From Thermoplasmata archaeon (GTDB taxonomy: Archaea; Thermoplasmatota; E2; DHVEG-1): a stretch of DNA of 49,945 bases. The notes below the pieces were generated by a model. That model was not told where the DNA came from. It made no database searches and saw nothing but the letters and a program-made list of their open reading frames with translations. The stretch is from assembly GCA_020054475.1 (NCBI GenBank), contig JAHWGJ010000010.1:1-49945 (forward strand), written 5' to 3'. Of the stretch, positions 4,375 through 48,856 are shown one piece after another. Within the stretch, counting starts at the first letter, position 1; every line of letters starts with the position of its first letter. The translations under genes and the position numbers were made by a program.

Positions 4375-4784
4375 TATAACATCTCATTTTTCTTAAATAT
4401 TCTATTTGAAAGGTTTTAATATTTATATATTAAATCATACAAAAATATTATTATTAATATTTGCAAGTAATGATGTTACAAGCGAATAATAATGGTTTCA
4501 GCAGAAGATTATATATGGTTTCAACGAATTATTATGTATGAATAGAAAAACAATAAAATGTTAGTAAAATTATTAATAAAAGTTGGCAGAAATACCAGCG
4601 GAAGAAGAGGAATGATGGGATGCATCTAGTGCTGGTAAGTCCTCCTTATTATTCGTCGAGTTAAAAGTATATTGTTGTTTTTGGTTTATATATTTTAAAG
4701 GAAGGTTGGTGAAAGTATTGAATAAACACCTCATTATTGCTAATAACAGAAGATTTAATAAAATAATCCTGATTTGCAAAATCT
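4375..4784. other. 410-base stretch without a supported gene
   Basis: The left part is AT-rich promoter sequence for the minus-strand membrane protein and includes the decayed repeat at 4453-4482. Bases 4580-4650 are clearly richer in G and purines (GGAAGAAGAGGAATGATGGG) than the surroundings. A 68-codon minus-strand frame at 4573-4779 has low-complexity composition and no ribosome site, so I do not call it. A short RNA or a gene relic is possible but unproven. Confidence 0.4.
4453..4482 (+). repeat. Intergenic orientation-locked repeat, copy 1 (decayed)
   Basis: The segment TGCAAGTAATGATGTTACA matches the repeat core with two substitutions. It lies between two minus-strand starts and a plus-strand gene. 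Confidence 0.5.
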
Positions 4785-5813
4785 ATGATTCTACACAATG
4801 AATTTGGAAGTGACAATCATTCAGGCGTACATCCTGATATTATGAAAGCAATAGAATCTTCAAACAAAGATTATACGATTGCATATGGAGGTGATAAATA
4901 TACAAAACGAGCAATTAAAAAATTCAAAGAACATTTTGGGAATAATATCGAAGTTTTTTTTGTTTATAATGGAACTGCTGCAAACATATTAGGATTAAAA
5001 AATGTCACAGATTCTTATAATTCAATACTATGTGCTGAAACTGCCCATCTAAATGTTCATGAATGTTGCGGTCCAGAAAATTTTACAGGATGCAAACTTA
5101 CAACAATTCCAACCCTTGATGGAAAACTTACTATTGATTCAATAAAACCCTTTATTGTAGGTATTGGAGATGAACATATGGCTCAACCAAAAGTAGTATC
5201 TATTACACAACCCACTGAACTGGGAACTGTCTATACTTCAAAAGAGGTCAAAGATCTTGCTGATTTTGTCCACAAACATGAAATGCTACTACATGTTGAT
5301 GGAGCTAGAATAAGTAACGCAGCAGCTAGTTTGAAAAAAAAATTGATAGAAATTACAAGAGATGTAGGCGTTGATGTCCTTTCATTTGGTGGAACAAAAA
5401 ATGGAATGATGTTTGGAGAAGCTGTAGTCTTTTTTAATAAGAATCTTTCAAAAAATTTTGAATACATTAGAAAACAAGGTATGCAGCTTGCATCAAAAAT
5501 GCGTTTTATATCATGTCAATTTGAAGTATTTTTATCAAATGACCTATGGTTGAAAAATGCACAGCATGCAAATAATATGGCAAAACTATTATATGAAAAT
5601 ATTAAAGAAATTACAGATTTAAAAGTAACTCAAAAAGTTGATGCTAATGCAATTTTTGCAATCATACCAAAAAAATTCATATCCATTTTGCAAAAGAAAT
5701 ATTACTTTCATGGATATAATTCTGAAGTAAGATGGATGTGCTCGTTTAATACAGGAGAGGAAGATGTTTTATGTTTTGCAAATATAATAAAAAAGACTTT
5801 ATCAGGTAAATAA
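4785..5813 (+). CDS. ltaE: Low-specificity L-threonine aldolase (PLP enzyme)
   Basis: The predicted reaction cleaves threonine or allo-threonine to glycine and acetaldehyde in the cytosol. The 342-residue protein has the fold-type I features of the beta-eliminating lyase/threonine aldolase family. These are the N-terminal SDNHSGVHPDI, the cofactor-stacking region YNGTAAN (61-67), HVDGAR (170-175, with Asp172 to the pyridine nitrogen) and the Schiff-base lysine in SFGGTKNG (Lys205). Length is normal. The aldolase activity is inferred from family; related beta-eliminating lyases are possible. The SemiSWEET gene follows after 3 bases, so the two are probably one operon. Confidence 0.85.
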   Translation: MILHNEFGSDNHSGVHPDIMKAIESSNKDYTIAYGGDKYTKRAIKKFKEHFGNNIEVFFVYNGTAANILGLKNVTDSYNSILCAETAHLNVHECCGPENFTGCKLTTIPTLDGKLTIDSIKPFIVGIGDEHMAQPKVVSITQPTELGTVYTSKEVKDLADFVHKHEMLLHVDGARISNAAASLKKKLIEITRDVGVDVLSFGGTKNGMMFGEAVVFFNKNLSKNFEYIRKQGMQLASKMRFISCQFEVFLSNDLWLKNAQHANNMAKLLYENIKEITDLKVTQKVDANAIFAIIPKKFISILQKKYYFHGYNSEVRWMCSFNTGEEDVLCFANIIKKTLSGK

Positions 5814-5816
5814 AAA

Positions 5817-6071
5817 ATGTATCAAATAGAAATCATTGGCTATATTGCAGGCTTCCTTGTTGCAACATCATTAGCACCTCAAATTAATAAAACATGGAAA
5901 ACTAAATCTGCTACAGATATCTCAACTTTATGGGTTGTTGCATTAATGTCAGGCTTGTTTTTATGGATAATATATGCAATTATTCAAGAAATTATACCTT
6001 TGATTGTTTTTGGAATAATTGAATTTAGTATGGCTTTTTCACTTTTAATTTTTAAATTTATTTATAAATAA
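5817..6071 (+). CDS. SemiSWEET / PQ-loop transporter
   Basis: At 84 residues this is the usual size of a SemiSWEET half-transporter, with three membrane helices: residues 5-24, 38-58 and 62-82. The PQ-loop signature is present as SLAPQINKTWKTKSATDIS in helix 1 and the following loop. Family members work as dimers and carry small sugars across the membrane; the substrate here is unknown. It starts 3 bases after the threonine aldolase stop, which suggests coupled expression, though no metabolic link is obvious. Confidence 0.85.
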   Translation: MYQIEIIGYIAGFLVATSLAPQINKTWKTKSATDISTLWVVALMSGLFLWIIYAIIQEIIPLIVFGIIEFSMAFSLLIFKFIYK

Positions 6072-6404
6072 TTATTATTTTTTCCAAAACAGATTCCAAT
6101 ATGTTCAATGTACATGATATTAATATTAGTGGCTCGTCAAAAAATAACCTTACGTCTAGATGACGTAGTTATTAAAGTGTTAAAATCTTAGCAATAAATT
6201 TAAACTCCCATAAAATAAATTATTTTCTTACTCGTTCTTATTTGTATAATCAAAATCATGATATATCCTTATATATATTATTTGTAACAAGTGTTATCAT
6301 TAACTTAAAAAAGAAAAATAAATAAATGAGATAAAACTCTATTTATTTTATTTACATAAGAACATTTAAATGATACCTTGTGATTATTATTCTTGGGGAA
6401 TATT
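6072..6404. other. Intergenic stretch with inverted repeat
   Basis: No gene is supported. The stretch holds the inverted repeat at 6151-6167 and AT-rich promoter sequence for the secreted protein at 6405. A segment GTAACAAGTGTTATCATTAA near 6280 may be a strongly decayed copy of the intergenic repeat, but I could not establish this. Confidence 0.4.
6151..6167. promoter_or_regulatory. Inverted repeat TACGTC-TAGAT-GACGTA
   Basis: Perfect 6-base arms flank a 5-base centre in an otherwise AT-rich gap, and a further partial match AAC/GTT lies outside. It sits about 80 bases after the SemiSWEET stop and 240 before the next start, so it could be an operator or an RNA hairpin at the operon end. Confidence 0.35.
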
Positions 6405-7270: not shown

Positions 7271-7307
7271 ACATCAAAATCATAATTAGCAAGTAATAAT
7301 GTTACAA
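7271..7307 (+). repeat. Intergenic orientation-locked repeat, copy 2
   Basis: Carries the exact core AAGTAATAATG, preceded by ATCATAATTAGC and followed by TTACAA. It lies between two plus-strand genes. Confidence 0.85.
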
Positions 7308-7404
7308 CTTTTTAAGATATAAAAAGAGAAATATTAAGTAATGTTTTCTAATTATACAGTATTGGCGGTTAAGGATAGTTCAATTTGATTTTTTACTTTG
7401 GCCA

Positions 7405-12699: not shown

Positions 12700-12729
12700 C
12701 TATAATAATTTACAAGTAATAATTTTAAA
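12700..12729 (+). repeat. Intergenic orientation-locked repeat, copy 3 (decayed)
   Basis: TACAAGTAATAATTTTAAA keeps AAGTAATAAT but loses the GCTACAAA end. It lies between the Ntn-hydrolase and the PadR gene. Confidence 0.45.
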
Positions 12730-12765
12730 TTTTTTTATTGAAATATTTCCATATATCGAGATAAT

Positions 12766-18464: not shown

Positions 18465-18497
18465 TATCATCATAATAAACAAGTAATTATGTTTTAA
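18465..18497 (+). repeat. Intergenic orientation-locked repeat, copy 4 (partly decayed)
   Basis: ATCATCATAATAAAC followed by AAGTAATTATG keeps both halves with few changes. It touches the stop codon of the minus-strand C25 gene at 18498. Confidence 0.65.
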
Positions 18498-20294
18498 TTA
18501 ATTATAACCACCAATTTTAAGGCTAGGATCTCCAAGAAGAATAAACTCTTCAACAGTAAATTCATCATCGGGAACATCGGTAATATACGCATTCTGAGTT
18601 TTGGTCATCATTTGACCCAGCGTCTCACTATTTTTGTAATTATTGAAAAACTCAATAGACATTTTTCCTGCACCAGAGTCAACGCCACCAAACGCTGTTC
18701 TAGTAGCCCCAATTGATGCAATTGACCCTCCACCTTCATGTTTAATGAAATACCAAGCATAACAAGGAACTCTTAACGATGTATCGTAATCAAGGATTCT
18801 TGCAAGAATATCAATAATACGATAAAACTTATAATCAAGTAAATCCTGAAGTACAAAATCAAGTTTTGCAGTTAAACACGCATCAAAAAAGATTATAGGT
18901 AGCTTATATCCATTTATAAGATCCTCAATATAGGGAGTAAAATATGATCTTAAAAAAAGACCTTTTGAAGAATATGTGCCCATTCCATGTTCAAATCCAT
19001 GGCCAGAATAATCCAAAAAACCTGCACCCTCGTTAATTGCCCCAGAAATTGTTTTTCTATTAAAATTATTTTCTGAGGCCCATATGATATAAGATGGATT
19101 AAAATCAGACATAATATCCATAATCATTTCATTGAGTTCTTCTCCTTCATTCCCCGGATTCCATCGAAACGTATTACCTCCAATAAATATCATATTATCA
19201 AACCAATCTTGATAAAAGGTCTCAGTTTCATAATGAATGATTTTATCAACAACTATTTCCACTTCTTTTATTTCATCACACGCAAGACGTCCAATATGAA
19301 CATCAGGAAAAAGATCCAGTTGATCCTCACCAGTTTCTCCAAAAATATTGTTATTATTAGAATCCCAACTGCTAAAATCTCCATTTGCATCAAGCAAATC
19401 TGAGTAATATAAATCTGTGAGAGTATCCTCTTGCCATCTGTCCCATAGTTTAACGGAACTGGTTCGAATAGGTAATTTATATATACTTCCTATGAGTAAA
19501 ATATAAGATGCTCCAAAATTTTCGACAGTCTCTTTAATAAAATATTTAATTTTTTCAGGTTCATCCCGGCCAGTATATTCCAAATAAATATCTTCAGTTG
19601 ACTTAAATAGCGTTTTAATATTATAGTTTTCTTTATGAGATATCAAGGGTTGTATTGCATTTGAATATTCTTTTGGTGCAATGATTATTAAATCATATTC
19701 ATCTGGAAATAATACTGATATTTTTGGTACATGGTAAAAAACATTAATTTCAACTTTTTCACTATGGTAAATAAGATTATTTTTAGGGGAATATCTAACA
19801 GGATAACAATCAACAATGAGATATGATACATGTTCATTATTATCCAAACCAGCAGTCATAATATAACTATGTCCAATTGTAGGATACAACTCTTCACTTT
19901 CATATACGCTAATATCTTTTACATATTCTTTTTTACTGATTGCATCCCTAGATACAAGTTCAGGTTCTATAAAAGGTACAATTTTTTTTGATAATTCAAT
20001 CACTTTTTCATTCGAAAAAATCACTTCAACTTGATTGATTTTTGTTCCAACTGGAAAAGAAAAAAGTTTTGTCACTACAGGTAAAACAGGTTTTCCAACA
20101 TCAAAAAATGTGGAGGTAGCTTGCTCCAAAGAAATAGATACATACTGATCAATATTTTCAATTATTAATTCTGAGATTATAAATATTTCATCTTGTTTTT
20201 TCACATAATATTCTGAATCTATGTTTAATGCAACTGCCCCAAGTCCACTTAAGATTAAAAAACCAATTATTAAAACTGAAAATATTTTTTTCAT
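18498..20294 (-). CDS. Secreted gingipain-like C25 cysteine peptidase with propeptide
   Basis: The protein has 598 residues. A signal peptide (about 1-23, ending GLGAVA) is followed by a propeptide of about 190 residues (VGKPVLPVVTKLFSFPVG...) and the catalytic domain from DEYDLIIIAPKEYS. Catalytic residues are His432 in YSGHGFEHG and Cys473 in FFDACLTAK. The shared acidic loop DLYYSDLLDANGDFSSWDS with NNNNIFGETGED is present. Unlike the copies at 9274 and 16572 it has no PKD-like module and ends with the subfamily tail EEFILLGDPSLKIGGYN. The closest relatives in the window are 33056 and 36792. GGAG-like AAGGAGAAAA lies upstream of the start. Confidence 0.9.
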   Translation of the reverse strand: MKKIFSVLIIGFLILSGLGAVALNIDSEYYVKKQDEIFIISELIIENIDQYVSISLEQATSTFFDVGKPVLPVVTKLFSFPVGTKINQVEVIFSNEKVIELSKKIVPFIEPELVSRDAISKKEYVKDISVYESEELYPTIGHSYIMTAGLDNNEHVSYLIVDCYPVRYSPKNNLIYHSEKVEINVFYHVPKISVLFPDEYDLIIIAPKEYSNAIQPLISHKENYNIKTLFKSTEDIYLEYTGRDEPEKIKYFIKETVENFGASYILLIGSIYKLPIRTSSVKLWDRWQEDTLTDLYYSDLLDANGDFSSWDSNNNNIFGETGEDQLDLFPDVHIGRLACDEIKEVEIVVDKIIHYETETFYQDWFDNMIFIGGNTFRWNPGNEGEELNEMIMDIMSDFNPSYIIWASENNFNRKTISGAINEGAGFLDYSGHGFEHGMGTYSSKGLFLRSYFTPYIEDLINGYKLPIIFFDACLTAKLDFVLQDLLDYKFYRIIDILARILDYDTSLRVPCYAWYFIKHEGGGSIASIGATRTAFGGVDSGAGKMSIEFFNNYKNSETLGQMMTKTQNAYITDVPDDEFTVEEFILLGDPSLKIGGYN

Positions 20295-20490
20295 ATTATT
20301 TTTCTCCTTATTAAGAAATTATTCCCCAAAATTAATTTTCATTATAATATATCAAATATAATTTAAATCATTTTTGCTTAATTTAGACTCAATTTGCAAA
20401 TGTTAACATGGGGGAATACCACAAATATTTACTAATGATTGGCATCAAAATCAAATAACATTCTTTTTTATCCTCAAATGGAATTAAAAA

Positions 20491-20520
20491 TATCATAATT
20501 AACAAGAAATAATGCTACTA
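20491..20520 (+). repeat. Intergenic orientation-locked repeat, copy 5 (partly decayed)
   Basis: TATCATAATTAACAAGAAAT then AATGCTACTA: one mismatch in the core, with the GCTAC end kept. It lies between two minus-strand genes. Confidence 0.65.
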
Positions 20521-20539
20521 TCTCATATGCAAACAAACA

Positions 20540-29255: not shown

Positions 29256-29290
29256 CAACATCATAATCAGCAAGTAATAATGCTATAAAA
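29256..29290 (+). repeat. Intergenic orientation-locked repeat, copy 11
   Basis: CAACATCATAATCAGC then AAGTAATAATGCTATAAA: close to consensus. Outer bases TCAAC and GTTGA are complementary. Confidence 0.9.
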
Positions 29291-29371
29291 GTTGAATTAA
29301 AAAAAATAATATTAACATCTGTTAAGGATAAATTTATATTGTTGGAGTATCATTATAGATTAGGGGACTAT

Positions 29372-30691: not shown

Positions 30692-30724
30692 CTATTATAC
30701 TCAGCAAGTAATAAGGCCACAAAC
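30692..30724 (+). repeat. Intergenic orientation-locked repeat, copy 12
   Basis: TATTATACTCAGC followed by AAGTAATAAGGCCACAAA; two substitutions in the core. Confidence 0.8.
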
Positions 30725-30760
30725 TATTTTATATTAGAACATTTAATATTATATTGGGGG
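30725..30760 (+). promoter_or_regulatory. Promoter/leader block duplicated in front of three genes
   Basis: TTTTATATTAGAACATTTAA and ATATTATATTGGGG stand between repeat copy 12 and the start. Near-identical blocks occur at 31290-31330 and 38930-38972. TTTATATT is a plausible TATA box and the G run is the ribosome site. Confidence 0.55.
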
Positions 30761-30766
30761 GTATAA

Positions 30767-31207
30767 TTGAAAAACAAATCCATCATTCTAGGTTTTATTC
30801 TATTATTCATAGCGTCACAATTTATACCTGTAATATCTGGAGATACATTTAATTCACACAATAAAAACAATATAGAAAATAATGGTCCTATTCTCCAATT
30901 TTACTTTGATTGGCAAAATAATACACTTTTTTTAAAAAATATTGGAGATGAAACAGCTTATAATATTTCTATATCGATTCAACTTAATGGTTTCATTATC
31001 CTTGGTTTTGGAAATAGTGGATTTCTATTAGGAATAGATGCTTTAGAGCCAGGCAAGGAGAAAAATATAATAAAAATATTTCCACTCGTTATAGGTTTAG
31101 GTCCTATTAATATAATTTATACGGCTATTGCATTAAATGCTGATTCAACTTCAATTACTTTAAAGGCATTTTTAATTGGATTCTTTATATTTAATTTGAG
31201 ATTATAA
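30767..31207 (+). CDS. Small secreted protein with CARDB-like fold
   Basis: The protein has 146 residues and starts at TTG with GGGGGG 6 bases upstream. Its signal peptide (MKNKSIILGFILLF, to about residue 25) is nearly the same as those of 31333 and 38976. The mature part is one beta-sandwich with NNTLFLKNIGDETAYNISIS and LEPGKEKNIIKIFPLVIGLG, the pattern of CARDB-type adhesion domains, ending in a hydrophobic tail. No enzyme motif was seen. It is the only gene in its repeat-bounded unit. Confidence 0.7.
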   Translation: MKNKSIILGFILLFIASQFIPVISGDTFNSHNKNNIENNGPILQFYFDWQNNTLFLKNIGDETAYNISISIQLNGFIILGFGNSGFLLGIDALEPGKEKNIIKIFPLVIGLGPINIIYTAIALNADSTSITLKAFLIGFFIFNLRL

Positions 31208-31257
31208 AATTAGAGCAATTATTAACTATAGATATTTGTAAACATGCTAACCATTTC

Positions 31258-31288
31258 CCTCATATCAACCAAGTAATAATGCTACAAA
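31258..31288 (+). repeat. Intergenic orientation-locked repeat, copy 13
   Basis: CCTCATATCAACC then the full core AAGTAATAATGCTACAAA. Confidence 0.9.
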
Positions 31289-31332
31289 CTGTTTTATATT
31301 AGAACAACTAATCTATTATATGGAGGGATTAA

Positions 31333-33055: not shown

Positions 33056-34372
33056 ATGAAAAAGACACTAATCTCAATTTCCATAATTGTATTATTACTC
33101 GGTGTTGTGATTCCTGTATCATCCGATATTTCATTAGAAAAAAACAGTTTTCAGATTAAAATTAATCAAGATGATGATTTTGATCTGATTATAATTACAA
33201 ATGCTTATTTAATCTCCGAACTTGAACCTCTATTTCAACATAAGAATAAATACGGTATTCACACAATGATAAAGACAACTGAAGAAATTTACCAAGAATA
33301 TCAAGGACGAGATGATGCTGAGAAGATAAAATATTTTATTAAGGATGCTAAGGAGAAATGGAATATTTCCTATGTAATGTTAATAGGGGATCAGCGTTTT
33401 ATACCATTTAGGAAATCCAATGTCATGCCATTTGATGATATTCCTTATGATTTTTTAAGTGAACTTTATTATGCTGATATATATGATTCCAATGGAAATT
33501 TTTCTAGTTGGGATTCCGATCGTGATGAAATATATTGCGAATGGTATAACGGCTCAAAAGCAGAGGATAACCAACAAGATCTTACTCCAGATGTTGCTGT
33601 TGGACGTATAATATGTTTTACTATACCTGATGTACAATCTATTGTAAATAAGATTATCGATTATGAATCGGATAAATCTGATCCATCATGGTTTAATAAT
33701 TTAGTTGTTGCAGGTGGTGAAACTTATGTTGAATATGAAGGTTTTGAGGGTGAAATTATGACTCAAAATGCAATTGATGTAATGAAAGATTTCAATCCTA
33801 TAAAACTATGGGTATCAAATGGCGAACTTGATCGTTTAGGTATTAATATAATCAGATCGATTAACCAAGGTTGTGGCTTTTTATATTTAGCAGGTCATGG
33901 AAATACACATTCATGGGTAACACTGTCACAGGAGGGAGAAACTGCTTCAATATTTACTATATTTCATTTACCATTTCTATTTAATAAAGGCGAATATCCT
34001 GTTTGTATTATAAGTGGTTGCCATGTCTGTAAATTTTCAAAATCCTCATGTATTGGTTGGAATATAATAAAAAAACAATATGGCGGATCAATTGCAACTA
34101 TCGGGCCAACTTCAAGTGGTTATCTTGGTTTTCAGTGGGGCGGAGGTGGACTTGATTGGCTAGAGCTACAGTTTTTTAAAGAATATGCTAAGGGATCACA
34201 TATTATTGGAGATATTTGGAAAGATTCAATTACAAAATATTTAGATTCTTATCCTATAGATTGGGATTTACTTGCATATCTAAACTGTGCAATTGATGCA
34301 AAGATGGTTCAGGAATGGGTTTTATTAGGTGATCCTAGCCTAAAAATTGGAGGATATCCTTCAACATCTTAA
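33056..34372 (+). CDS. Secreted gingipain-like C25 cysteine peptidase, short form
   Basis: The protein has 438 residues. After a signal peptide (to about 24) the catalytic domain begins almost at once (DFDLIIITNAYLISELEPLF), so the long propeptide seen at 18498 is absent. Catalytic residues are His281 in LAGHGNTHSW and Cys322 in IISGCHVCK. The acidic loop ELYYADIYDSNGNFSSWDSD is present. The protein ends QEWVLLGDPSLKIGGYP plus STS; those last residues and the TAA are contributed by the intergenic repeat. It lies 1 base after the caspase-like gene. Confidence 0.9.
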   Translation: MKKTLISISIIVLLLGVVIPVSSDISLEKNSFQIKINQDDDFDLIIITNAYLISELEPLFQHKNKYGIHTMIKTTEEIYQEYQGRDDAEKIKYFIKDAKEKWNISYVMLIGDQRFIPFRKSNVMPFDDIPYDFLSELYYADIYDSNGNFSSWDSDRDEIYCEWYNGSKAEDNQQDLTPDVAVGRIICFTIPDVQSIVNKIIDYESDKSDPSWFNNLVVAGGETYVEYEGFEGEIMTQNAIDVMKDFNPIKLWVSNGELDRLGINIIRSINQGCGFLYLAGHGNTHSWVTLSQEGETASIFTIFHLPFLFNKGEYPVCIISGCHVCKFSKSSCIGWNIIKKQYGGSIATIGPTSSGYLGFQWGGGGLDWLELQFFKEYAKGSHIIGDIWKDSITKYLDSYPIDWDLLAYLNCAIDAKMVQEWVLLGDPSLKIGGYPSTS

Positions 34373-34396
34373 TCACCAAGTAATAATGCTACAAAT
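34362..34396 (+). repeat. Intergenic orientation-locked repeat, copy 14
   Basis: CAACATCTTAATCACC then AAGTAATAATGCTACAAA. The stop codon of the C25 gene (34370-34372) lies inside it. Outer CAACAT and ATGTTG are complementary. Confidence 0.92.
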
Positions 34397-34473
34397 GTTG
34401 CAATGGGTAATCTTTTAAATCGAGATTGCATTATAACAATCTGGAGGAATAACCTTTTTGGGAGGTCTTTCGA

Positions 34474-36153
34474 ATGAAGAAAATTATTGGAATAATAATT
34501 TTGATATTATTAATATCTCCACAAATAAATGCATCTCATTTGGATTATTCAGATATTGGAGATAGTAGATTTAATTGTTCAATTAAAATATCTGGAGAAG
34601 TACAGTTTACTAGTCAAACAATAAATTTTAAAGTTGCTGATAAATCAATTATTCCATATTGTACATTGAAATTTGATTATAGTTCAGATATAATTGTAGA
34701 AATAGATGGTGACAAAATTGATTTTGCATCTGGAGGAAATATTATACTTTTAGGTTTTTTTGGAACATATAATGTAAATGATATAGATGAGATAAAAACA
34801 AACATAAATCTCGATGGAAAAACATTATTTGTAAAAATTAATGCAATACAGGAAATAGATGTAGATGATTCATTTATATCTATTGTTCAATCATTAGATA
34901 ATATTACTCATCCTTTAGATAAATCCCCTTTAGAATTAATTGATGAAGATTTCAAATGTCTAGAGTATTTATCTGACTGTAAAATTGTAGGCTTAGGAGA
35001 AGCAACTCATGGGACAAAGGAATTCTTTCAATTAAAACATAGGATTTTTAGATATTTAGTTGAAAATTATGGATATAAGATATTTGCGTTTGAATGTGAT
35101 ATGGGGGAATCATATTATATTGATAATTATGTTATTACAGGAGAGGGGGATATTGATGATATAATGATAAATAAAATGATTTTCTGGACATGGTGTACAG
35201 ATGAGGTAAAGAATCTATTAATTTGGATGAAGGAATATAATGAAGATAAAGCTGATGAGGATAAAATTCATTTTATTGGTGTCGATTGTCAATACTTGAG
35301 CTATCAATCTGATGTTATAATAGATTATTTTAATAGGTCAAATGTCTCAATATCTAGTGATTGTTTGAATTTTTTAAATGAAATAAAACAAGTAGATTGG
35401 AATATATTAGATTATTTTTCAAATATAAACTTATCAAAGAAGGAAGAAATCGATCAAAATGTTGATAAGTTAATAACATCAATGGAAAAATTAAAGGATG
35501 AATTTATCTCTACTTCATCAGAATTTGAATATCAATTTATAAAAAGAATGGCTCTTAATATCAAACAAGTGAATGATCATTATTATTCAATGATCAATGA
35601 AAATATTATGAAAAGAGATTTTTATATGGCGCAAAACACACTTTGGTTAAACAATCTATTGAACAATAATAACAAGATAGCCCTATGGGCCCATAATGGT
35701 CATGTGAGAAATAGTGGGCCTTACTCAGGATTTGGATCATTGGGGTTTCATTTGAAGGATGAATTAAATGAAAGTTATCAGATTATTAATTTTGCATTTT
35801 CCTTTGGTAGTTTCACTGCTTATGAGTTGAAATTTAATCAGTATATCCTCGGGATTTGTCATATATCAAAACATCCTATATTTGGTTCGATGAATTATGT
35901 TTTTCATTATGCGGAGGATGATAATTTTATTTTACGAAAGATGGACTTTATTGATAATTCAAGCTTTGACCAATGGATTTCAAATCCACAAAAATTCCTT
36001 GATATTGGTGCATTATTTATTGGGGACTCCCATTTTCATTATTTTGATATTGAATTTAAAGAACAATTTGATATTCTAATATATTGGGATGAAACATTAG
36101 CATCAGAATTATTAAATCCTCAAATCAATTTTCATATCCATGCTAACCATTAA
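34474..36153 (+). CDS. Secreted erythromycin-esterase-family protein with extra N-terminal domain
   Basis: The protein has 559 residues with a signal peptide (to about 20). Residues about 30-125 are a beta domain (FNCSIKISGEV, IILLGFFGTY, NLDGKTLFVKI) that recurs twice in the protein at 45691. Residues about 150-545 match the erythromycin esterase/EreA-like superfamily: GLGEATHGTKEFF (Glu176, His179), LKHRIFRYLVE, FAFECDMGE (Glu207), and HNGHVRN further on. Characterised members hydrolyse macrolide lactones, but many relatives are of unknown function, and export argues for another ester substrate. GGAGGT lies 9 bases before the start. It stands alone in its repeat-bounded unit. Confidence 0.85.
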   Translation: MKKIIGIIILILLISPQINASHLDYSDIGDSRFNCSIKISGEVQFTSQTINFKVADKSIIPYCTLKFDYSSDIIVEIDGDKIDFASGGNIILLGFFGTYNVNDIDEIKTNINLDGKTLFVKINAIQEIDVDDSFISIVQSLDNITHPLDKSPLELIDEDFKCLEYLSDCKIVGLGEATHGTKEFFQLKHRIFRYLVENYGYKIFAFECDMGESYYIDNYVITGEGDIDDIMINKMIFWTWCTDEVKNLLIWMKEYNEDKADEDKIHFIGVDCQYLSYQSDVIIDYFNRSNVSISSDCLNFLNEIKQVDWNILDYFSNINLSKKEEIDQNVDKLITSMEKLKDEFISTSSEFEYQFIKRMALNIKQVNDHYYSMINENIMKRDFYMAQNTLWLNNLLNNNNKIALWAHNGHVRNSGPYSGFGSLGFHLKDELNESYQIINFAFSFGSFTAYELKFNQYILGICHISKHPIFGSMNYVFHYAEDDNFILRKMDFIDNSSFDQWISNPQKFLDIGALFIGDSHFHYFDIEFKEQFDILIYWDETLASELLNPQINFHIHANH

Positions 36154-36185
36154 CATTATATTCACCAAGTAATAATGCTACAAAT
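36152..36185 (+). repeat. Intergenic orientation-locked repeat, copy 15
   Basis: AACATTATATTCACC then AAGTAATAATGCTACAAA. It begins at the stop codon of the esterase gene and fills the whole gap to a convergent gene. Confidence 0.92.
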
Positions 36186-36196
36186 TTTTTAACACA

Positions 36197-36562
36197 CTAT
36201 TTTTTCTGGTACAATAAATTGTCAATTCTTCTTTTTAAATCATTTGTTAAAAATGGTTTTTCTATAAAATCATCACCATAGAATTCACCTGCTTTTTTAA
36301 CAATATCATCAGTTCTAGCTGTAATAATAATTATAGGAATATCCTTCCATCTTTGGCTATCTTTTAATCTCTTGATTACTTCCCATCCATTCATATCTGG
36401 CATCATAATATCAAGTATTATTAGATCTGGTATCTCTGATTCTAGATGTCTGAAACATTTTTTTCCACTCTCAGCAGTTTTAATTTCATATTCTGTAAAA
36501 AAACCTTGCTTGATTGCATAGAGTATTTCAGGGTTATCATCTACAACCAATATCTTCTTCAT
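36197..36562 (-). CDS. Stand-alone response regulator receiver (CheY-like)
   Basis: The 121-residue protein is a single REC domain without an output domain. The phospho-acceptor is Asp51 in LIILDIMMP; the acid pair is Asp8-Asp9 in ILVVDDNPE, and the switch residues are in IIIITART and IEKPF. Such proteins relay phosphate from a histidine kinase, which is not encoded in the window. It is the only cytosolic signalling protein among secreted-protein genes. It is alone between repeat copies 15 and 16 and opposite in direction to both neighbours, like a cargo gene. Confidence 0.93.
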   Translation of the reverse strand: MKKILVVDDNPEILYAIKQGFFTEYEIKTAESGKKCFRHLESEIPDLIILDIMMPDMNGWEVIKRLKDSQRWKDIPIIIITARTDDIVKKAGEFYGDDFIEKPFLTNDLKRRIDNLLYQKK

Positions 36563-36642: not shown

Positions 36643-36676
36643 TAACATCAAATTAAGCAAGTAATAATGCTATAAA
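36643..36676 (+). repeat. Intergenic orientation-locked repeat, copy 16
   Basis: TAACATCAAATTAAGC then AAGTAATAATGCTATAAA, lying between two divergent starts. Outer TAAC and GTTA are complementary. Confidence 0.9.
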
Positions 36677-36791
36677 GGTTATTTGAAATAGCCCATTGTT
36701 AATCTTATTAATTTTTAAATAATGTACAAAATATGAACCCCAATTATTAAATATCTGTAGAATAGTACATTTATCTGGAGGGAATTAATAT

Positions 36792-38165: not shown

Positions 38166-38261
38166 TCTATTCAATAAAGAAAGAATAACACATATGCATA
38201 GAATTTCTAAAACAATCCCCTCAACTTGTTTGGATTGGTATTGATCATATTTAGATTTTAT

Positions 38262-38292
38262 CTCTTAATCACCAAGTAATAATGCTACAAAT
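38262..38292 (+). repeat. Intergenic orientation-locked repeat, copy 17
   Basis: CTCTTAATCACC then AAGTAATAATGCTACAAA; followed at once by the second element at 38293. Confidence 0.92.
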
Positions 38293-38367
38293 GGGTAACA
38301 AATGTCAAATAAGTTGTTTTAAAAGATAATCAGAGAGTATAACATTGATTATTTTGGGCTACTCTCT
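38293..38367 (+). repeat. Second intergenic element with hairpin, copy B
   Basis: GGGTAACAAATGTCAAATAA, then a stem AGAGAGTA (38332-38339) with TACTCTCT (38360-38367). It is the counterpart of 26218-26292. Its right arm reaches into the 3' end of the SRPBCC gene. Confidence 0.6.
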
Positions 38368-38828
38368 AATATCTTTTTTAGATTTTCTCCTTCTTCCTTT
38401 ACATGTTTTTTATTTATTCTTATTGCAGAATCCATCTGTTTTTTGGATATTTTCCTATAAAAATCTTCAAATTTAATAATACTTATTGCAGTAAAAACAG
38501 AGTTTGATCCTTTTGGTTCAATATGCCATTCAAAGCCAGGGGATATCAATGTTACTGGAAATGAGCATTTGAATACAATTCTTCTATTTGGAATAACATC
38601 TCCAATTATTCCTTTGATTTTTTTTGCATGTCCTTCAAATGTTTCTTCTGCATACCAGTTAGAACCAGTTTCCATAGGTTTGCCCTTTGTCCACTTGAAT
38701 TCAACATGGGCTTCTGGATGCCATTTTTTATAATTATTATCAAGATTGATAAAAAACTCCCATATCTTTTCTGGTGTTGTTTTTATCTCTATTGAATCCT
38801 TTAATACTAATGGTTTAAACAAACTCAT
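38349..38828 (-). CDS. SRPBCC (START/polyketide-cyclase-like) superfamily protein
   Basis: The 159-residue cytosolic protein has the helix-grip fold sequence pattern: SIEIKTTPEKIWEFFINLDNNYKKWHPE, then a basic strand pair, VIPNRRIVFKCSFP, and GFEWHIEPKGSNSVFTAISI. A final long helix closes the hydrophobic pocket. Members bind or transform small hydrophobic ligands; no ligand can be named. It is alone between repeat copies 17 and 18, opposite to its neighbours. Its 3' end carries the right arm of the second repeated element, so the last residues (LESSPK) are partly encoded by it. Confidence 0.82.
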   Translation of the reverse strand: MSLFKPLVLKDSIEIKTTPEKIWEFFINLDNNYKKWHPEAHVEFKWTKGKPMETGSNWYAEETFEGHAKKIKGIIGDVIPNRRIVFKCSFPVTLISPGFEWHIEPKGSNSVFTAISIIKFEDFYRKISKKQMDSAIRINKKHVKEEGENLKKILESSPK

Positions 38829-38900
38829 ATCGTCTCATCCATCCTATATTAATAACAGAAAAGTATGGCAGCATATAAATTCATTCATCCTCTCCACCTC

Positions 38901-38933
38901 TATCATTATCACCAAGTAATAATGCTACAAATG
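38901..38933 (+). repeat. Intergenic orientation-locked repeat, copy 18
   Basis: TATCATTATCACC then AAGTAATAATGCTACAAA. Inner ATCATT and AATGAT are complementary. Confidence 0.92.
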
Positions 38934-38975
38934 ATTTTATATCAGAACATCTAATATTATATTGGGGAGGTAATA

Positions 38976-40232
38976 ATGAAAAACAGGTCCACCATCTTTG
39001 GGATTATTCTATTATTATTATTTTCAAGTAGTATTCCATTTGTCTCTATTTATGAGGGCTCTTCAAATGATTTCATCTATGTTGATGGCGATGGAACAGC
39101 AGACTATGTAAGGATTCAAGATGCGATAGATAATGCAAGTGAAGGAGATACAATATTTGTCTATAATGGTACATATTATGAGAATATTATTATCGATAAA
39201 CCAATAAATTTAATCGGAGAAGATACAAATAATACAATAATTCGAGGTGACGGAATTAATAATATTGTAACTATCAACTCTGATTGGATAGATATAAGTG
39301 GTTTCAATATTTGTAACACCTTATTAGAAAATTCAAAGGAACCTATAGTATGCGTTAGTTTGAATTCGAGTTTTAGTATGATACATAATAATATTTTGTA
39401 TAATTGCTCTTATGGCATTTATCTAAATAGTTCGTCAAATAATAAAATATACAAAAATATCATTTATAAACGTGGAGGCATTTGTGGAATTTTCCTTTTT
39501 CATAGGTGTAGTAATAATTCAATATTTGAAAACATGATATATGATTTTGACTATTGGGGTATCTATCTATGGAATAATTCAAATAATAATATGATATATG
39601 ATAATAATTTTATTAGCAGCCATCAGACAATAACAATTGATAACTCAAATAATAATATCATACATAACAATACAATAGATAAAAGCGGTCATGGTGTTGG
39701 AATGTGGCTAATCGCAGGTAAAAATAACGAAATTTCTGGTAATTTTATTGAGAACATAACTTATGGAATAGTCCTTGATAAAGCTTCTAATTATAATATC
39801 ATAAAAAATAATATTATTCAAAATAATATGGATGGTATAAATATCTGGCAAAAATCAGATAACAATATTGTCATGAATAATATCGTTTCTAATAATCGGA
39901 ATGATGGGATATACATTGCTGAGAGTAAAGAGAATTCTGTTCAATTAAATAATATAACAAATAATGGTCAAGGGGTAAATATTATTAGAAAGTCAATTAG
40001 AAATACAATTATAGCAAATAATTTTGAAAACAATAAAGTCAACGCTTTATTCCATTCCTCGTATTTAACAACATGGGACATGAATTACTGGGGTCAACCA
40101 AGAGATACTCCTTATATGATATGGGGGAGAATTGGAATATTCAATAGTATATCAATCATCCCTTGGGTTCAATTTGATAGAAATCCTGCACAAGAACCAT
40201 ATGATATGCCATTTCCAGAGGTGAGTATATAG
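38976..40232 (+). CDS. Secreted NosD-type parallel beta-helix protein
   Basis: The protein has 418 residues. Signal peptide and first 60 mature residues closely match those of 31333 (FIYVDGDGTADYVRIQDAID, IFVYNGTYYENIIID). PbH1 coils follow over about residues 95-380, with Asn ladders such as NNNIIHNNTIDKS and YNIIKNNIIQNN, ending NYWGQPRDTPYMIWG. Unlike 31333 it has no protease domain. NosD-type helices bind or act on carbohydrate polymers, or assist metal-centre assembly; a sugar-binding surface role is more likely here. The next gene starts 1 base after the stop. Confidence 0.85.
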   Translation: MKNRSTIFGIILLLLFSSSIPFVSIYEGSSNDFIYVDGDGTADYVRIQDAIDNASEGDTIFVYNGTYYENIIIDKPINLIGEDTNNTIIRGDGINNIVTINSDWIDISGFNICNTLLENSKEPIVCVSLNSSFSMIHNNILYNCSYGIYLNSSSNNKIYKNIIYKRGGICGIFLFHRCSNNSIFENMIYDFDYWGIYLWNNSNNNMIYDNNFISSHQTITIDNSNNNIIHNNTIDKSGHGVGMWLIAGKNNEISGNFIENITYGIVLDKASNYNIIKNNIIQNNMDGINIWQKSDNNIVMNNIVSNNRNDGIYIAESKENSVQLNNITNNGQGVNIIRKSIRNTIIANNFENNKVNALFHSSYLTTWDMNYWGQPRDTPYMIWGRIGIFNSISIIPWVQFDRNPAQEPYDMPFPEVSI

Positions 40233-43220: not shown

Positions 43221-43267
43221 TTTATTCTTTTGTCTCTCAGGAGTCTTCAATAATATGATGTATTCCT

Positions 43268-43302
43268 ACATCATAATCACCAAGTAATAATGCTAAAAAT
43301 GT
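43268..43302 (+). repeat. Intergenic orientation-locked repeat, copy 19
   Basis: TACATCATAATCACC then AAGTAATAATGCTAAAAA. Outer ACAT and ATGT are complementary. Confidence 0.92.
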
Positions 43303-43931: not shown

Positions 43932-43962
43932 CAACATCATAATCGCCAAGTAATAATGTAAA
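43932..43962 (+). repeat. Intergenic orientation-locked repeat, copy 20
   Basis: CAACATCATAATCGCC then AAGTAATAATGTAAA. It lacks the CTAC step; lies between convergent genes. Confidence 0.9.
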
Positions 43963-43992
43963 TTTTTTATTGAAGACATAGTGATTACCTAC

Positions 43993-44006
43993 TTTTACGA
44001 GTAAAA
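43993..44006. terminator. Inverted repeat between convergent genes
   Basis: TTTTAC-GA-GTAAAA is a perfect 14-base palindrome, placed after repeat copy 20 and before the end of the methyltransferase gene. It could mark bidirectional transcript ends. Confidence 0.3.
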
Positions 44007-44059
44007 ATTACAGAACCATGATTTAAGTTCAATGTTGCGTCATGAGGCTATGATAATGT

Positions 44060-44941
44060 TTATTTTAATTTATAGTGAACTATCCACTGTGTTTTTTTAA
44101 TTTTTTCAAAACGTCCCATCAAATTTATCCATCCAAGCTTTTTTTCTTTATCATCAAAATAGGTCCAATCATCTAAAAAAATTATTCCCTTATTCCATCT
44201 TTCAAATTCATTGCTATCTTTTATCCCAAAGTTAAAAGTTGCATCCCCTCCAAGGTGGAAATCCCTCTGGAATTTTCTCCTCAAAATCTTTCTTTTTAAA
44301 AATTTTATTACAAATGAATTTGCAACTTCACAGGCAAGCTCACATCCTGGAAACATTCTCTGAAGTTTTAACAATAAAGATTTTACTTCATCTTCATGTA
44401 AATACATAAATAAACCCTCAGCGATGAATAAAAACTTCTTGTTCTGATTTTTAAGTTGTTCCATCCATTTCCATTTTAGCACTGAAGATGGGATAAAATG
44501 GTATCTATTTGATTCTTTGAAAAACTTTTCTCTGATTCCAATTACTTCTGGAAAATCTAGGTCATACCATTGTAGTTTTCCATTATCTATCCTTGTGAAT
44601 CGTGTACTCAAACCACATCCAAGTTCAACGATTATACCATCTGGATTTTCACTTAAAAAATCAAGGCAGTATTTATCGAACTTTTTTGTTCTAAGTGTTA
44701 AAGTGGCATTAAGTTTTTTCCCCATATTTCTTCTTGCTTTTCCTTTTGCTAAGTTTTGATGTAAGATCGAATCAGATTTTTCAAAGATTTTGTTTAGCTC
44801 TTGAGTTATTTCCACAGCTTTTTTATCTATTATGATTGGGTTCTCTGATTTTGTTTCCATAGCTCTTGCATAAAGAGGTATCAGTAGGGTTTCTGATATA
44901 TCAGTTATTTTATCAATTGAATTTTCTCGCATATTGGACAT
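44060..44941 (-). CDS. LCM/TcmP-type SAM-dependent O-methyltransferase
   Basis: The protein has 293 residues and the leucine carboxyl methyltransferase (PPM1/TcmP, PF04072-type) sequence plan. N-terminal ETLLIPLYARAMETK is followed by LRTKKFDKY, SAM motif I VELGCGLSTRF, WYDLDFPEVIGIR, and FIAEGLFMYLHEDEV. Family members methylate carboxyl or hydroxyl groups of small molecules or proteins, and the archaeal substrate is unknown. It is cytosolic, with no neighbour in its unit. Upstream lies the 749-base gap with the duplicated non-coding element. Confidence 0.85.
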   Translation of the reverse strand: MSNMRENSIDKITDISETLLIPLYARAMETKSENPIIIDKKAVEITQELNKIFEKSDSILHQNLAKGKARRNMGKKLNATLTLRTKKFDKYCLDFLSENPDGIIVELGCGLSTRFTRIDNGKLQWYDLDFPEVIGIREKFFKESNRYHFIPSSVLKWKWMEQLKNQNKKFLFIAEGLFMYLHEDEVKSLLLKLQRMFPGCELACEVANSFVIKFLKRKILRRKFQRDFHLGGDATFNFGIKDSNEFERWNKGIIFLDDWTYFDDKEKKLGWINLMGRFEKIKKTQWIVHYKLK

Positions 44942-45050
44942 TATTTCATATTCAATTAATTCATTTAAATTTGTTCAAAAATTTAATCATTAATTTTATC
45001 TCTCAGGAGGCTTCAAAACAAAGTTTTTTGTGTTGAATGTAAATAAAAAG

Positions 45051-45505
45051 AGGTGTTAAACCTAACTTTTAGCCTGACTCCCGGCTGGGGCGTATATTTA
45101 ACTTTTAGCTAAATTCCTTTCCCTGAATTTATTTTACACAAAATATCTAGTTCAATAGATTGATATTATTCTATACTTTTCTATCAATTCCCAACAGTGG
45201 CTTAATATTATTGACTATTCTACTAGTAAACTGCAGTTCCATTCCCGACAGGAGCATTATACTAATTTACTTTCTAATAAGAGTTAAACCTGGAATTAGA
45301 GTCTCCTCCCCTGCATACCTAAGATTTCAACAGGAGAAAAACCATGAATTTTTCTGGTTGACATTGTTGTGGTTAAAAAAGTGATTTAAACCCTAAAACT
45401 TTGTTAGCAATTCCGATAGATGTCTTGTGATATAAAAGGAATTTTGTCAAGGTATTTTTAATCAACGAGACTATCAATCAGCAGGTTGAAAAACAACATA
45501 AATAA
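45051..45505 (+). repeat. Duplicated non-coding element, long copy
   Basis: The left end (TTAAACCTAACTTTTAG, GACTCCC, GTATATTTAACTTTTAG) and the right end (GTATTTTTAATCAACGAGAC, GAAAAACAACAT) match a shorter copy at 48672-48831. About 290 extra bases in the middle include degenerate units of about 54-55 bases starting near 45080, 45190 and 45244 (CCCGGCTGGGGC, CCCAACAGTGGC, CCCGACAGGAGC). It is GC-richer than its surroundings. Repeat copy 21 follows directly. Confidence 0.7.
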
Positions 45506-46596: not shown

Positions 46597-46629
46597 ATCT
46601 CATAATCAGCAAGTAATAATGCTACAAAT
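46597..46629 (+). repeat. Intergenic orientation-locked repeat, copy 22
   Basis: AATCTCATAATCAGC then AAGTAATAATGCTACAAA, between convergent genes. AATCTCA on the left pairs with TGAGATT at about 46637-46643. Confidence 0.92.
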
Positions 46630-46648
46630 ATTCTTTGAGATTAGATTT

Positions 46649-47254
46649 TTAGTTATTGAGAAATATCATCAATGGTAAGACAAAGTAAAATAGCTGAAAG
46701 GGTGTTACTCCAAGTCTTTCTAGTAAACCTCTATAGTTACTCTCGATAAATATTCCCGAAATAATCAACAGAATTAGGGCAACTATCGCAGAAACTAATG
46801 AATAGTTTGCAAATGTACTCCAACCAGTAACATCTTTTAATCTAAACCAAAGTAAAATCATACCAACTATAGTAAGTATTCCCATTATAATTACTAATAT
46901 CAAATGCATTTTTCCTCTCCAAGTAGTCATTTCTCCACCTTCATCGAGAGGGAAGAAGAAAGCAATGAAGACTCCTAGTATTGATGCAAGAATAAATAGA
47001 TATGGTCCAATAATTGAACCTCCATCTTTTAATCCTTCATGCAATCCTAGATAAAATAGAAAAAGTAAGACACTTGATATAATAATGAAAGTTTGCATTA
47101 ATCGCTTGTTTGGAGCTCCAACTGCAAATAATGAACTTATATCATGTCTGATATGACTATAATCTGATTGTAATTTTCCACCAATAATCCACATTAATGT
47201 GTAAAATATTGGACTTAGCATTCCGCATATTGCTAAAATTTGAATGAAATTCAT
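46649..47254 (-). CDS. DUF998 membrane protein
   Basis: The protein has 201 residues from the ATG at 47254, which lies 1 base after the stop of the upstream gene; an ATG at 47275 would add seven residues and overlap it. Six helices are predicted, with the DUF998 pattern: an early GxxSPIFYTLMWIIGG, then YSHIRHDISSLFAVGAPN, a helix pair, and FFPLDEGG before helix 4. DUF998 is an uncharacterised membrane family, often beside stress or regulator genes. It is the third gene of an operon with DUF6326 and an MDR dehydrogenase. Confidence 0.82.
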   Translation of the reverse strand: MNFIQILAICGMLSPIFYTLMWIIGGKLQSDYSHIRHDISSLFAVGAPNKRLMQTFIIISSVLLFLFYLGLHEGLKDGGSIIGPYLFILASILGVFIAFFFPLDEGGEMTTWRGKMHLILVIIMGILTIVGMILLWFRLKDVTGWSTFANYSLVSAIVALILLIISGIFIESNYRGLLERLGVTPFQLFYFVLPLMIFLNN

Positions 47255-47255
47255 T

Positions 47256-47621
47256 TTAAACCCATGTCCATGCATACCAAACAGTTAAAGCATTAAACAT
47301 TAGACCTATAACTATCAAAAATCTATCATAAATTCCAGGATAAGAACGAAATCCCGCAAGATTAAAGACAAATAAAAATCCAGCTGCTATTATGTGTAAC
47401 CATTGAATCGCAGGATAAAATAATGTTAAAGATAAAACAACCATAATAATTGGAATTAGCATAAGTAAAGCCATTAACATAAGCATACCTTGTGTCATTT
47501 TTTTACCTTCAATTTTCCCTGGCGTAAAATCACCAGCAAATATTCTCATAACATCACCTAAAAGATAAGTCAGCATTAGAGCAATCCATAATCCCACAAG
47601 AATTATTCTAATATCCTCCAT
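47256..47621 (-). CDS. DUF6326-like membrane protein
   Basis: The protein has 121 residues with four membrane helices. The sequence pattern IRIILVGLWIALMLTYLLGDVMRIF, then KMTQGMLMLMALLMLIPIIMV, and a last helix ending ALTVWYAWTW agrees with what I know as the DUF6326 family. Function is unknown. Its start overlaps the stop of the dehydrogenase gene by 1 base (TAATG) and its stop abuts the DUF998 start, so translation is coupled through the operon. GAATAATGGAGG around the start holds the next ribosome site. Confidence 0.75.
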   Translation of the reverse strand: MEDIRIILVGLWIALMLTYLLGDVMRIFAGDFTPGKIEGKKMTQGMLMLMALLMLIPIIMVVLSLTLFYPAIQWLHIIAAGFLFVFNLAGFRSYPGIYDRFLIVIGLMFNALTVWYAWTWV

Positions 47622-48583
47622 TATTCAATCACCTTTATTACTATTTTTCCTTTGGTATGTTTTTCTTCATAATAATTTATAGCTTCTGCAATCTGATTTA
47701 GTGAATAACATCTATCAATTATTGGTTTTATTTTACCTGATTCAATAAGCTGTCTTATGTAAGATAAATCCTTTTTATTTAGTTTAGCCATATATGATTT
47801 CACCCTTTTACTTCCAAACAATGATATTATTGGTCCTAGAAATATAGAGGTAGGATTGAAATCACATGCAATATATGTACCATGTGGAGTTAATGCACGT
47901 TTATATTCAGAAATTGAGTGGCTTACATGAAGATCAAAAATTAAATCATAATGCTGCCCACTTTTTGTAAAATCTTCTTTAGCATAATCAATTACATTAT
48001 CTGCTCCTATAGAATGTATCATGTCTATCTTCTTCGTACTACACACACCAGTTACTTCAGCACCAAAGTATTTGGCAATCTGAACAGCAAATATGCCTAT
48101 TCCTGAACTAGCACCATTAATCAATACCTTTTGTCCTTTTTTTATCTGTCCATGATTTCTAAGACCTTGTAAGGCTACAACCGATGCTTGAGGAATAGAT
48201 GCTGCTTCCTTAAATGTCAAATTAGTAGGTTTGAGTACTATTGTTTTTTCAGGGATTGTAATATATTCAGCAAACCCACCGAAACCAACATCTCCTATAT
48301 CACCAAATACCTCATCTCCTGGTTTAAACTCCTTAATATTTCTTCCAACAGCTTCAACTTGTCCTGCTATGTCAGAACCAAGAGTTTTATTTTTTGGTTT
48401 TAGAAAACCCTGCCAAAGACGTCCTAAGAAAGGTTTACCTCTTGTTAATGTCGAATCAGATGAATTTATTGCTGAAGCATGAATTTTTACAAGAATTTCA
48501 TTTTCATTAGGGATAGGTTTTGATATTTCCTTGATTTGATGAACTTCTGGAGGTCCATATTTTTCATAAACAACCGCTTTCAT
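47621..48583 (-). CDS. Zinc-free MDR family NAD(P)H-dependent oxidoreductase (quinone oxidoreductase-like)
   Basis: The 320-residue protein is a medium-chain dehydrogenase/reductase. The N-terminal GroES-like part has MKAVVYEKYGPPEV, HASAINSSDSTLTRG, LGSDIAGQVEAVG and FKPGDEVFGD. The Rossmann part has VLINGASSGIGIFAVQIAKYFGAEVTGVCS. The family's structural zinc Cys cluster is absent, as in quinone oxidoreductases and related reductases. It ends with the usual AINYYEEKHTKGKIVIKV. The predicted role is cytosolic reduction of quinones or enones with NADPH. It leads the three-gene operon with DUF6326 and DUF998, a combination often seen in bacteria, which suggests gene transfer (inference). Confidence 0.88.
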   Translation of the reverse strand: MKAVVYEKYGPPEVHQIKEISKPIPNENEILVKIHASAINSSDSTLTRGKPFLGRLWQGFLKPKNKTLGSDIAGQVEAVGRNIKEFKPGDEVFGDIGDVGFGGFAEYITIPEKTIVLKPTNLTFKEAASIPQASVVALQGLRNHGQIKKGQKVLINGASSGIGIFAVQIAKYFGAEVTGVCSTKKIDMIHSIGADNVIDYAKEDFTKSGQHYDLIFDLHVSHSISEYKRALTPHGTYIACDFNPTSIFLGPIISLFGSKRVKSYMAKLNKKDLSYIRQLIESGKIKPIIDRCYSLNQIAEAINYYEEKHTKGKIVIKVIE

Positions 48584-48647
48584 ATTTAAAATCCAAATTA
48601 ATGAATTAAGATCTTATAAAAAAATATATCCTTTTACTCTAAATAGT

Positions 48648-48674
48648 TGTAACCAAGTAATAATGTAATAAATG
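48648..48674 (+). repeat. Intergenic orientation-locked repeat, copy 23 (left half decayed)
   Basis: GTAACC then AAGTAATAATGTAATAAATG. Confidence 0.8.
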
Positions 48675-48831
48675 AAAAGTTGTATTAAACTTAACTTTTA
48701 GATAGACTCCCTTCCCCAGCATATATTTAACTATTAGTTAAATTCCGGCAGACAGCTTGTAATTTAAATTGAATTTGGTCAGGGTATTTTTAATCAACGA
48801 GACTGTCAGTTAAGGGGTTGGAAAACAACAT
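48672..48831 (+). repeat. Duplicated non-coding element, short copy
   Basis: TTAAACTTAACTTTTAG, GACTCCC, CATATATTTAACTATTAG, and then GTATTTTTAATCAACGAGAC and GAAAACAACAT match both ends of the element at 45051-45505. It is the only content between repeat copies 23 and 24. Confidence 0.7.
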
Positions 48832-48856
48832 TTCACAAAGTAATAATGCTACAAAT
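48827..48856 (+). repeat. Intergenic orientation-locked repeat, copy 24
   Basis: AACATTTCACA then AAGTAATAATGCTACAAA; follows the short non-coding element directly, as copy 21 follows the long one. Confidence 0.9.

Follow-up and report, generated by a model that had tools for sequence, protein, structure and literature searches.

To our knowledge, no widely known platform other than the integron stores numerous single-gene cassettes as an array. A dif site occurs once per chromosome, where it serves dimer resolution, and the dif modules of Acinetobacter alternate in site orientation. Integrons occur in Archaea, and arrays of true integrons are often found without an intact integrase (PMC9668308), while the pdif/dif modules of Acinetobacter are moved by XerCD (PMC6449649, PMC13141974) and an archaeal XerA/dif system has been described (PMC2958812). 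Here, we analyze a 34-nt repeat in a 49,945-nucleotide stretch of DNA from a Thermoplasmata archaeon (the window), which is the entire contig C44 (JAHWGJ010000010.1) of G000, a metagenome-assembled genome (MAG) of a sediment archaeon comprising 1.68 Mb in 46 contigs at 72% completeness. We conclude that this repeat is probably the recombination site of an integron-like, non-integron gene-cassette system in one family of Thermoplasmatota. All genomes compared are MAGs or assemblies without reads, and several contig ends fall inside arrays.

When compared to integrons, clusters of attC sites lacking integron integrases (CALINs) and archaeal integrons (PMC9668308), the arrays described here share tandem, mostly one-gene units, a single site polarity, diverse genes and occurrence of units across genera, and some likewise have no intact adjacent integrase. 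They differ in having a centrally conserved 34-nt site without RYYYAAC/GTTRRRY boxes or a hairpin, genes in either direction, no integron integrase among the five recombinases tested, and a distribution limited to a single Thermoplasmatota family. With the pdif modules of Acinetobacter they have in common gene modules lying between short sites with two arms and a short center, shuffling of these modules and a similar site size, whereas the sites here all have one orientation, bound tens of chromosomal modules and are not a known dif. The site is also similar in size to that of the archaeal XerA/dif system (PMC2958812), and the solved relatives of our candidate enzyme are XerA and XerD, but about 100 sites here bound genes. 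Finally, as in integrative elements that use tyrosine integrases to enter tRNA 3′ ends, an array is anchored at tRNA-Leu(CAA) in each of two genomes of one genus, and remnants of the tRNA-Leu 3′ end are present in and near arrays; unlike in such elements, the recurrent boundary is the 34-nt site rather than the tRNA 3′ end, and the units are 1-2 kb long and mostly single genes.

The consensus of the site is ACATCATAATCA[G/C]C|AAGTAATAATGCTACAAATG, preceded by a more weakly conserved stretch that reads roughly AATCATGCTAACCATCA in aligned copies. Its arms, CATNATNA and TNATNATG, are partly inverted around a short CA[G/C]CAA center, with 6 of 8 positions agreeing when read from the consensus. 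Within the window, the exact 11-mer AAGTAATAATG has 14 copies on the + strand and none on the − strand, against 0.12 per strand predicted from base composition; with up to one mismatch, there are 33 matches versus 4.9 expected, and the highest count in 100 shuffles is 11. A 34-column weight matrix trained on copies from the same genome (maximum possible score of 53) recovers 24 copies in the window, all on the + strand, with none on the − strand and none for a reversed-motif control of equal composition. The first-pass annotation had described about 24 copies, 14 of them with the exact 11-mer where chance predicts far fewer than one, and none on the minus strand of the window, and these counts are reproduced here. 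The copies found by the matrix include one at 26321 that lacks the 11-mer, and at least three (3938, 12714 and 23877) are doubtful through weakness. Strong sites predominate between 28 and 49 kb, where they separate almost every unit of 1-3 genes, as that annotation had stated for the copies from 28 kb on, but between 4 and 28 kb there are few sites and these have decayed (scores 10-37).

Outside the window, the same organization recurs, with about 100 copies in G000 distributed over several arrays. With open reading frames called by length and whole genomes sampled as stretches, 86 sites score 18 or higher in 517 kb read from G000. All but one of these (85/86) fall between genes, even though coding sequence makes up 77% of the stretches read (P about 3e-53), and 54 of the 56 neighboring pairs less than 5 kb apart lie on one strand. 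Copies are thus neither oriented at random nor equally frequent within genes, the two patterns that the first-pass annotation had set against an array. The median spacing is 1.2 kb, exactly one gene is found in 39/54 units, and the cassette functions are unrelated, including C25, C1 and M28 peptidases, erythromycin esterase, catalase-peroxidase, a response regulator, methyltransferases, alcohol dehydrogenase, pyruvate:ferredoxin oxidoreductase, an RNase J-like protein and geranylgeranyl reductase.

Gene direction is almost independent of site direction: 39 genes point with the site and 27 against it (66 total). This bears on whether the repeat is a transcription signal, such as a promoter, a terminator or an element of the 3′ untranslated region, as could be suggested by gene stops that often lie within 100 nt of a site and starts that typically lie 40-130 nt beyond it. 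Such a signal is not expected to be opposed by 27/66 genes or to sit between convergent genes, and the three convergent placements reported earlier (36167, 43948 and 46611) do each lie between convergent reading frames. With no Rfam match at the gathering threshold in the window, and with the homology breaks described below left unexplained, this explanation is highly unlikely, and the earlier statement that the repeat is not simply a promoter or terminator holds.

The strand bias itself might instead reflect a replication-polar or chromosome-organizing motif akin to FtsK-orienting polar sequences (KOPS), an alternative that the first-pass annotation had offered, and sites do keep to one strand throughout most contigs. 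The description of copies as always on the + strand, however, is true of the window contig only: the arrays on C34 and C2 are uniformly −, and C3, C6 and C26 bear sites on both strands. On C6, + sites at 68.6-75.2 kb give way to − sites at 79.7-83.6 kb, a switch within 4.4 kb that rules out a replication-polar motif unless C6 contains an origin or terminus. The sites, moreover, are grouped into arrays and missing from most members of the family, and homology breaks at them; a KOPS-like role is left with next to no probability.

The strongest evidence comes from comparing site pairs flank by flank, with 150 bp as the cutoff for a shared flank. At this cutoff, 31 pairs have one flank in common and none has both. 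In G018, which belongs to another genus, the 1.4 kb before the C215 site match the left flank of G000:C38:7116 with 93.6% identity, and the 133 bp after it (to the G000 contig end) match the right flank of G000:C28:6005 with 100% identity; the two units joined in G018 lie on separate contigs in G000 (C38 and C28). A methyltransferase unit (C26:1753-2688) recurs with 86% identity in G018:C77:6385-7320, again between two sites, and both of its neighbors differ. Between G000:C4:1792 and G021:C24:463, identity is 98.5% rightward from inside the site, while the leftward sequences are unrelated, and a homologous unit (435-438 aa) spans site to site in G026:C8 and G043:C22 (66%). Because homology starts or stops at the site and units recur with different neighbors, the repeat delimits gene cassettes that can be exchanged. 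The site thus has a defined identity, a polarity and an intergenic placement, and cassettes have been exchanged between genomes with homology ending at it. The non-attC cassette array proposed in the first-pass annotation is supported by these breaks, which occur in other species and genera, by the recurrence of units, and by the differing units at the tRNA-Leu locus described below.

A dispersed short repeat, resembling miniature inverted-repeat transposable elements (MITEs) or repetitive extragenic palindromic (REP) sequences, could also have been inserted between genes, with homologous or microhomology recombination then scrambling the neighborhood. The copies are indeed short and intergenic, the genome is rich in recombinases and their remnants, and homology breaks are common in this family at ordinary intergenic points too (31/40 between-genome pairs). 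Repeats of this kind insert either way, yet the 54/56 neighbors on one strand are what excision and integration at direct sites, and not random insertion, would yield. In addition, no site pair retains both flanks, half-sites break at the single point C|AAG (9 right-only and 4 left-only), and whole units move from site to site, so that we consider a dispersed repeat unlikely. Linkage between columns of the site is strong inside each flank and falls to nothing across the core, a result that is only supporting as the core columns vary little.

The features of the window are as follows. Figures in brackets after sites are weight-matrix scores, and site rows without further comment rest on the matrix.

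4451-4484, + strand: half-site, right half conserved (21.2)
7277-7310, + strand: recombination site (37.3); shares its right flank (82% identity over 757 bp), but not its left, with a G021 site
12700-12733, + strand: doubtful, strongly decayed site (11.6)
18467-18500, + strand: decayed site (19.3)
20490-20523, + strand: recombination site (29.7)
23863-23896, + strand: doubtful, strongly decayed site (10.4)
26307-26340, + strand: recombination site without the exact 11-mer (26.4)
28042-28075, + strand: decayed site (13.9)
28492-28525, + strand: recombination site (28.3)
29258-29291, + strand: recombination site, near-consensus (48.1)
30692-30725, + strand: recombination site (32.6)
31257-31290, + strand: recombination site (38.5); right flank, but not left, common to C30 and C10 sites
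34364-34397, + strand: recombination site (49.0)
34474-36153, + strand: cassette gene, erythromycin-esterase family protein
36153-36186, + strand: recombination site between convergent genes (45.2)
36197-36562, − strand: cassette gene, response-regulator receiver domain, against the site direction
36645-36678, + strand: recombination site (38.7); right flank common to C34:2498 only
38260-38293, + strand: recombination site (44.2)
38349-38828, − strand: cassette gene, START/AHSA1-like protein; DNA 85% identical in G013
38900-38933, + strand: recombination site (47.5)
43268-43301, + strand: recombination site (48.3), left end of the 'TCTCTCAGGAG..ATGATG' family
43934-43967, + strand: recombination site between convergent genes (26.8)
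44060-44941, − strand: cassette gene, leucine carboxyl methyltransferase family; 43992-44989 is 92% identical to G017:C117
45292-45404, + strand: tRNA-Leu(CAA) 3′-end remnant and downstream anchor sequence, 90% identical to the real tRNA-Leu locus in C35
45505-45538, + strand: recombination site (49.8), with the tRNA-Leu anchor sequence before it
46597-46630, + strand: recombination site between convergent genes (46.1)
46649-48583, − strand: three-gene cassette (DUF998, DUF6326, zinc alcohol dehydrogenase); 46647-48584 is 80% identical to G018:C230
48641-48674, + strand: half-site, conserved right half and foreign left half (20.0)
48824-48857, + strand: half-site, conserved right half and foreign left half (19.8)

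Two further sequences recur. Several secreted-protein cassettes (window 30706-31400 and 38914-39016; L050, L051, L059, L114) have a common upstream region and leader, ATTTTATATCAGAACATCTAATATTATATTGGG, followed by differing proteins, one of which has beta-helix and caspase-like domains. An intergenic module, TCTCTCAGGAGGCTTCAAAATATGATG, recurs at 43225-43266 and 44998-45045 of the window and in L045, L050, L054, L057 and L060, often immediately to the left of a site but also without one; relative to the window, G021:C150 is missing the stretch between two copies of this module.

A canonical integron, or a CALIN with diverged attC sites, would have an identical array logic, and true integrons exist in Archaea (PMC9668308). 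At the site, however, RYYYAAC is present upstream in 3/63 cases, GTTRRRY downstream in 1/63 and both in 0/63, with 5 and 2 occurrences in control windows, and the folding of 90-nt DNA segments around 62 sites is near random (mean z −0.63, sd 1.43). It is the center rather than the outer boxes that is conserved, the genes are not co-oriented (39 to 27), and against the integron-integrase model TIGR02249, the best of five tested recombinases from the 72% complete G000 scores 89 bits versus a cutoff of 265. We therefore agree with the earlier view that the repeat differs from attC, and a diverged integron is very improbable.

A second possibility is that the site is a relative of dif and that modules are mobilized by the Xer recombinase of the host, a mechanism put forward for Acinetobacter pdif. 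The partly inverted arms around a short center are as in sites of tyrosine recombinases, and the solved relatives of the recombinase on C21 are XerA and XerD. A dif-like site would have two 11-nt arms and a center of about 6 nt; in the consensus here, 6 of 8 arm positions agree. Against the curated XerA model (NF040815), however, 0/45 family genomes exceed the cutoff, although one comes close (G002, 212 of 220 bits). The sites are also confined to one family, number many rather than one per chromosome, and do not alternate, with neighbors on the same strand in 54/56 pairs; a Xer/dif-like origin is thus improbable.

As to the enzyme, G000 has 13 PF00589 hits, and in a comparison to NCBIfam, five recombinases, among them those at the C21 and C2 arrays, all stay below the cutoffs for integron integrase and XerA. 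The best candidates are zinc-ribbon tyrosine recombinases, with one intact relative inside the C2 array and damaged ones at the left end of both this array and the C21 array. The C21 member (342 aa) has all catalytic residues by eye, and 330 bp separate it from a site at its array's left end. Intact zinc-ribbon recombinases are encoded at L045:5409-6611 and C6:59917-60918. The sole recombinase listed for G021 (on C133) does not match the candidates and has no site nearby. On C40, a weak site (12.8) lies 45 bp from an integrase frame, but it is of about chance quality and was not used. Separately, L126:7359-8252 and L127:2450-3427 encode related recombinases (68% identical) whose N-terminal frame holds a PPEFESGSLAPKA/GFELKSIAPEA stretch typical of integrase genes that overlap a tRNA gene, and G016 and G017, MAGs of one genus, have 17 and 11 tyrosine recombinase matches, respectively, at E 1e-20 or better.

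Several observations weigh against a cassette system of this kind. The flank statistic is modest, as no pair of 15 shares both flanks at sites versus 9/40 between-genome pairs at ordinary intergenic points (Fisher P = 0.05), and the 31 one-flank pairs are not independent; it is thus the base-exact breaks that carry the argument. The left edge of the block shared by C38 and G018 has no clear site, only possibly a decayed right half, while G014 and G017 share a left flank together with the first ~80 bp of the right, homology here passing beyond the site. A 92% methyltransferase cassette match at G017:C117 has no recognizable adjoining site, and in a search of this contig, which bears the methyltransferase gene and an integrase, for another repeat in the role of the site, none was seen. 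Among the enzymes, the C21 recombinase lacks the C-terminal zinc ribbon present in a 56% identical G032 protein, and the member of its family 134 bp from the leftmost C2 site is reduced to an 84-aa N-terminal remnant. Across genomes, the sites are not tracked by any recombinase: close relatives of the C21 enzyme are absent from the site-bearing G021, G014 and G043.

Two arrays are anchored at a tRNA gene. G000:C35:18924-24080 and G021:C24:540-5707, from congeneric genomes, are 92.9% identical over 5.2 kb that includes tRNA-Leu(CAA), and a site lies 0.1-0.2 kb downstream of the tRNA in both. The cassettes to the right of this site differ, and the one at the G021 locus occurs in G000 at C4 (98%). 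None of the other family tRNA-Leu loci retrieved has a site after the tRNA. In the window, the tRNA-Leu 3′-end remnant with anchor sequence (45292-45404) directly precedes the site at 45519. This remnant is one of many partial copies of the tRNA-Leu 3′ end plus ~80 nt downstream that occur across the family, including G031 (C1, 872-909 kb), G013, G019, G041 and G042; judging from sequence, such recurrence would be typical of tRNA-Leu having served repeatedly as an integration target. An inverted-repeat-rich element of 110 nt (TATCAGAAGCCTTCAGA..TTATCAGAAGG) is found at L056:1012-1117, L047:5391-5519, L048:9586-9726, L052:194-334 and L051:7606-7717, ends at the right half of the site in 4/5 places and resembles the G021 sequence downstream of tRNA-Leu. 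By contig, this conserved left element occurs at C21, C26, C3 (twice) and C34. The idea that it is a unique attI next to an integrase was dropped in favor of a better description, in which it is one among several left ends at array starts.

The site has a narrow distribution. A covariance-tool model of the site built on sequence only gives 99 matches in G000, while a further 30 family genomes have 1-20 each, a good number of them weak. At E 1e-5, 10/52 genomes of the order match, all from the same family as G000, and across 390 genomes of the phylum, matches are found only in members of this family. In a named genome collection, the matches are mostly in Candidatus Thermoplasmatota MAGs. The site has no match in viral contigs and phages, nor does a 7-kb array stretch in plasmids. 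Two strong sites at contig ends are binned elsewhere: L137 (JAQYVG010000149.1, 67-100) as a Desulfobacterales bacterium and L132 (DAOUZW010000114.1, 171-204) as a Bathyarchaeota archaeon. The L137 contig, whose GC content rises from 30% to 55% within 600 bp of the site, may be chimeric, while L132 bears the 3′ end of a methyltransferase cassette (77-88% identity); the two represent either cross-phylum transfer or assembly error.

Under the gene-cassette reading, a cassette would consist of one to a few genes with both site halves, starting with AAGTAATAATGCTACAAATG and ending with ACATCATAATCA[G/C]C. The uniform orientation, the asymmetric central CASCAA and the half-sites argue for conservative site-specific recombination, most likely by a tyrosine recombinase. 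Recombination within the central CA[G/C]CAA(G) would join cassettes head to tail, and all sites of an array would then share a direction whatever the direction of the genes. The enzyme would probably act on ordinary double-stranded DNA, cassettes may enter and leave as excised circles, and the conserved left-end elements next to tRNA-Leu are putative array-start sites. More tentatively, we regard it as a genuine possibility that this is a new, independently evolved archaeal gene-capture system, with a compact double-stranded site and its own family of zinc-ribbon tyrosine recombinases, holding tens of mostly one-gene cassettes anchored at tRNA-Leu and spread between genera, perhaps phyla.

In the open-access literature, we found archaeal integrons and XerA/dif but no description of the 34-nt site; subscription papers and preprints were outside this scope. 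Integron finders keyed to attC and IntI would miss such arrays. Should the enzyme turn out to represent a recombinase family of its own, the system would be categorically new. A second system with a different site would mean that cassette arrays evolved more than once, and what an array requires (a folded or a plain site, and which recombinase) would become directly testable. For sediment archaea, which lack cultured genetics, such a system would provide a route for gene flow.

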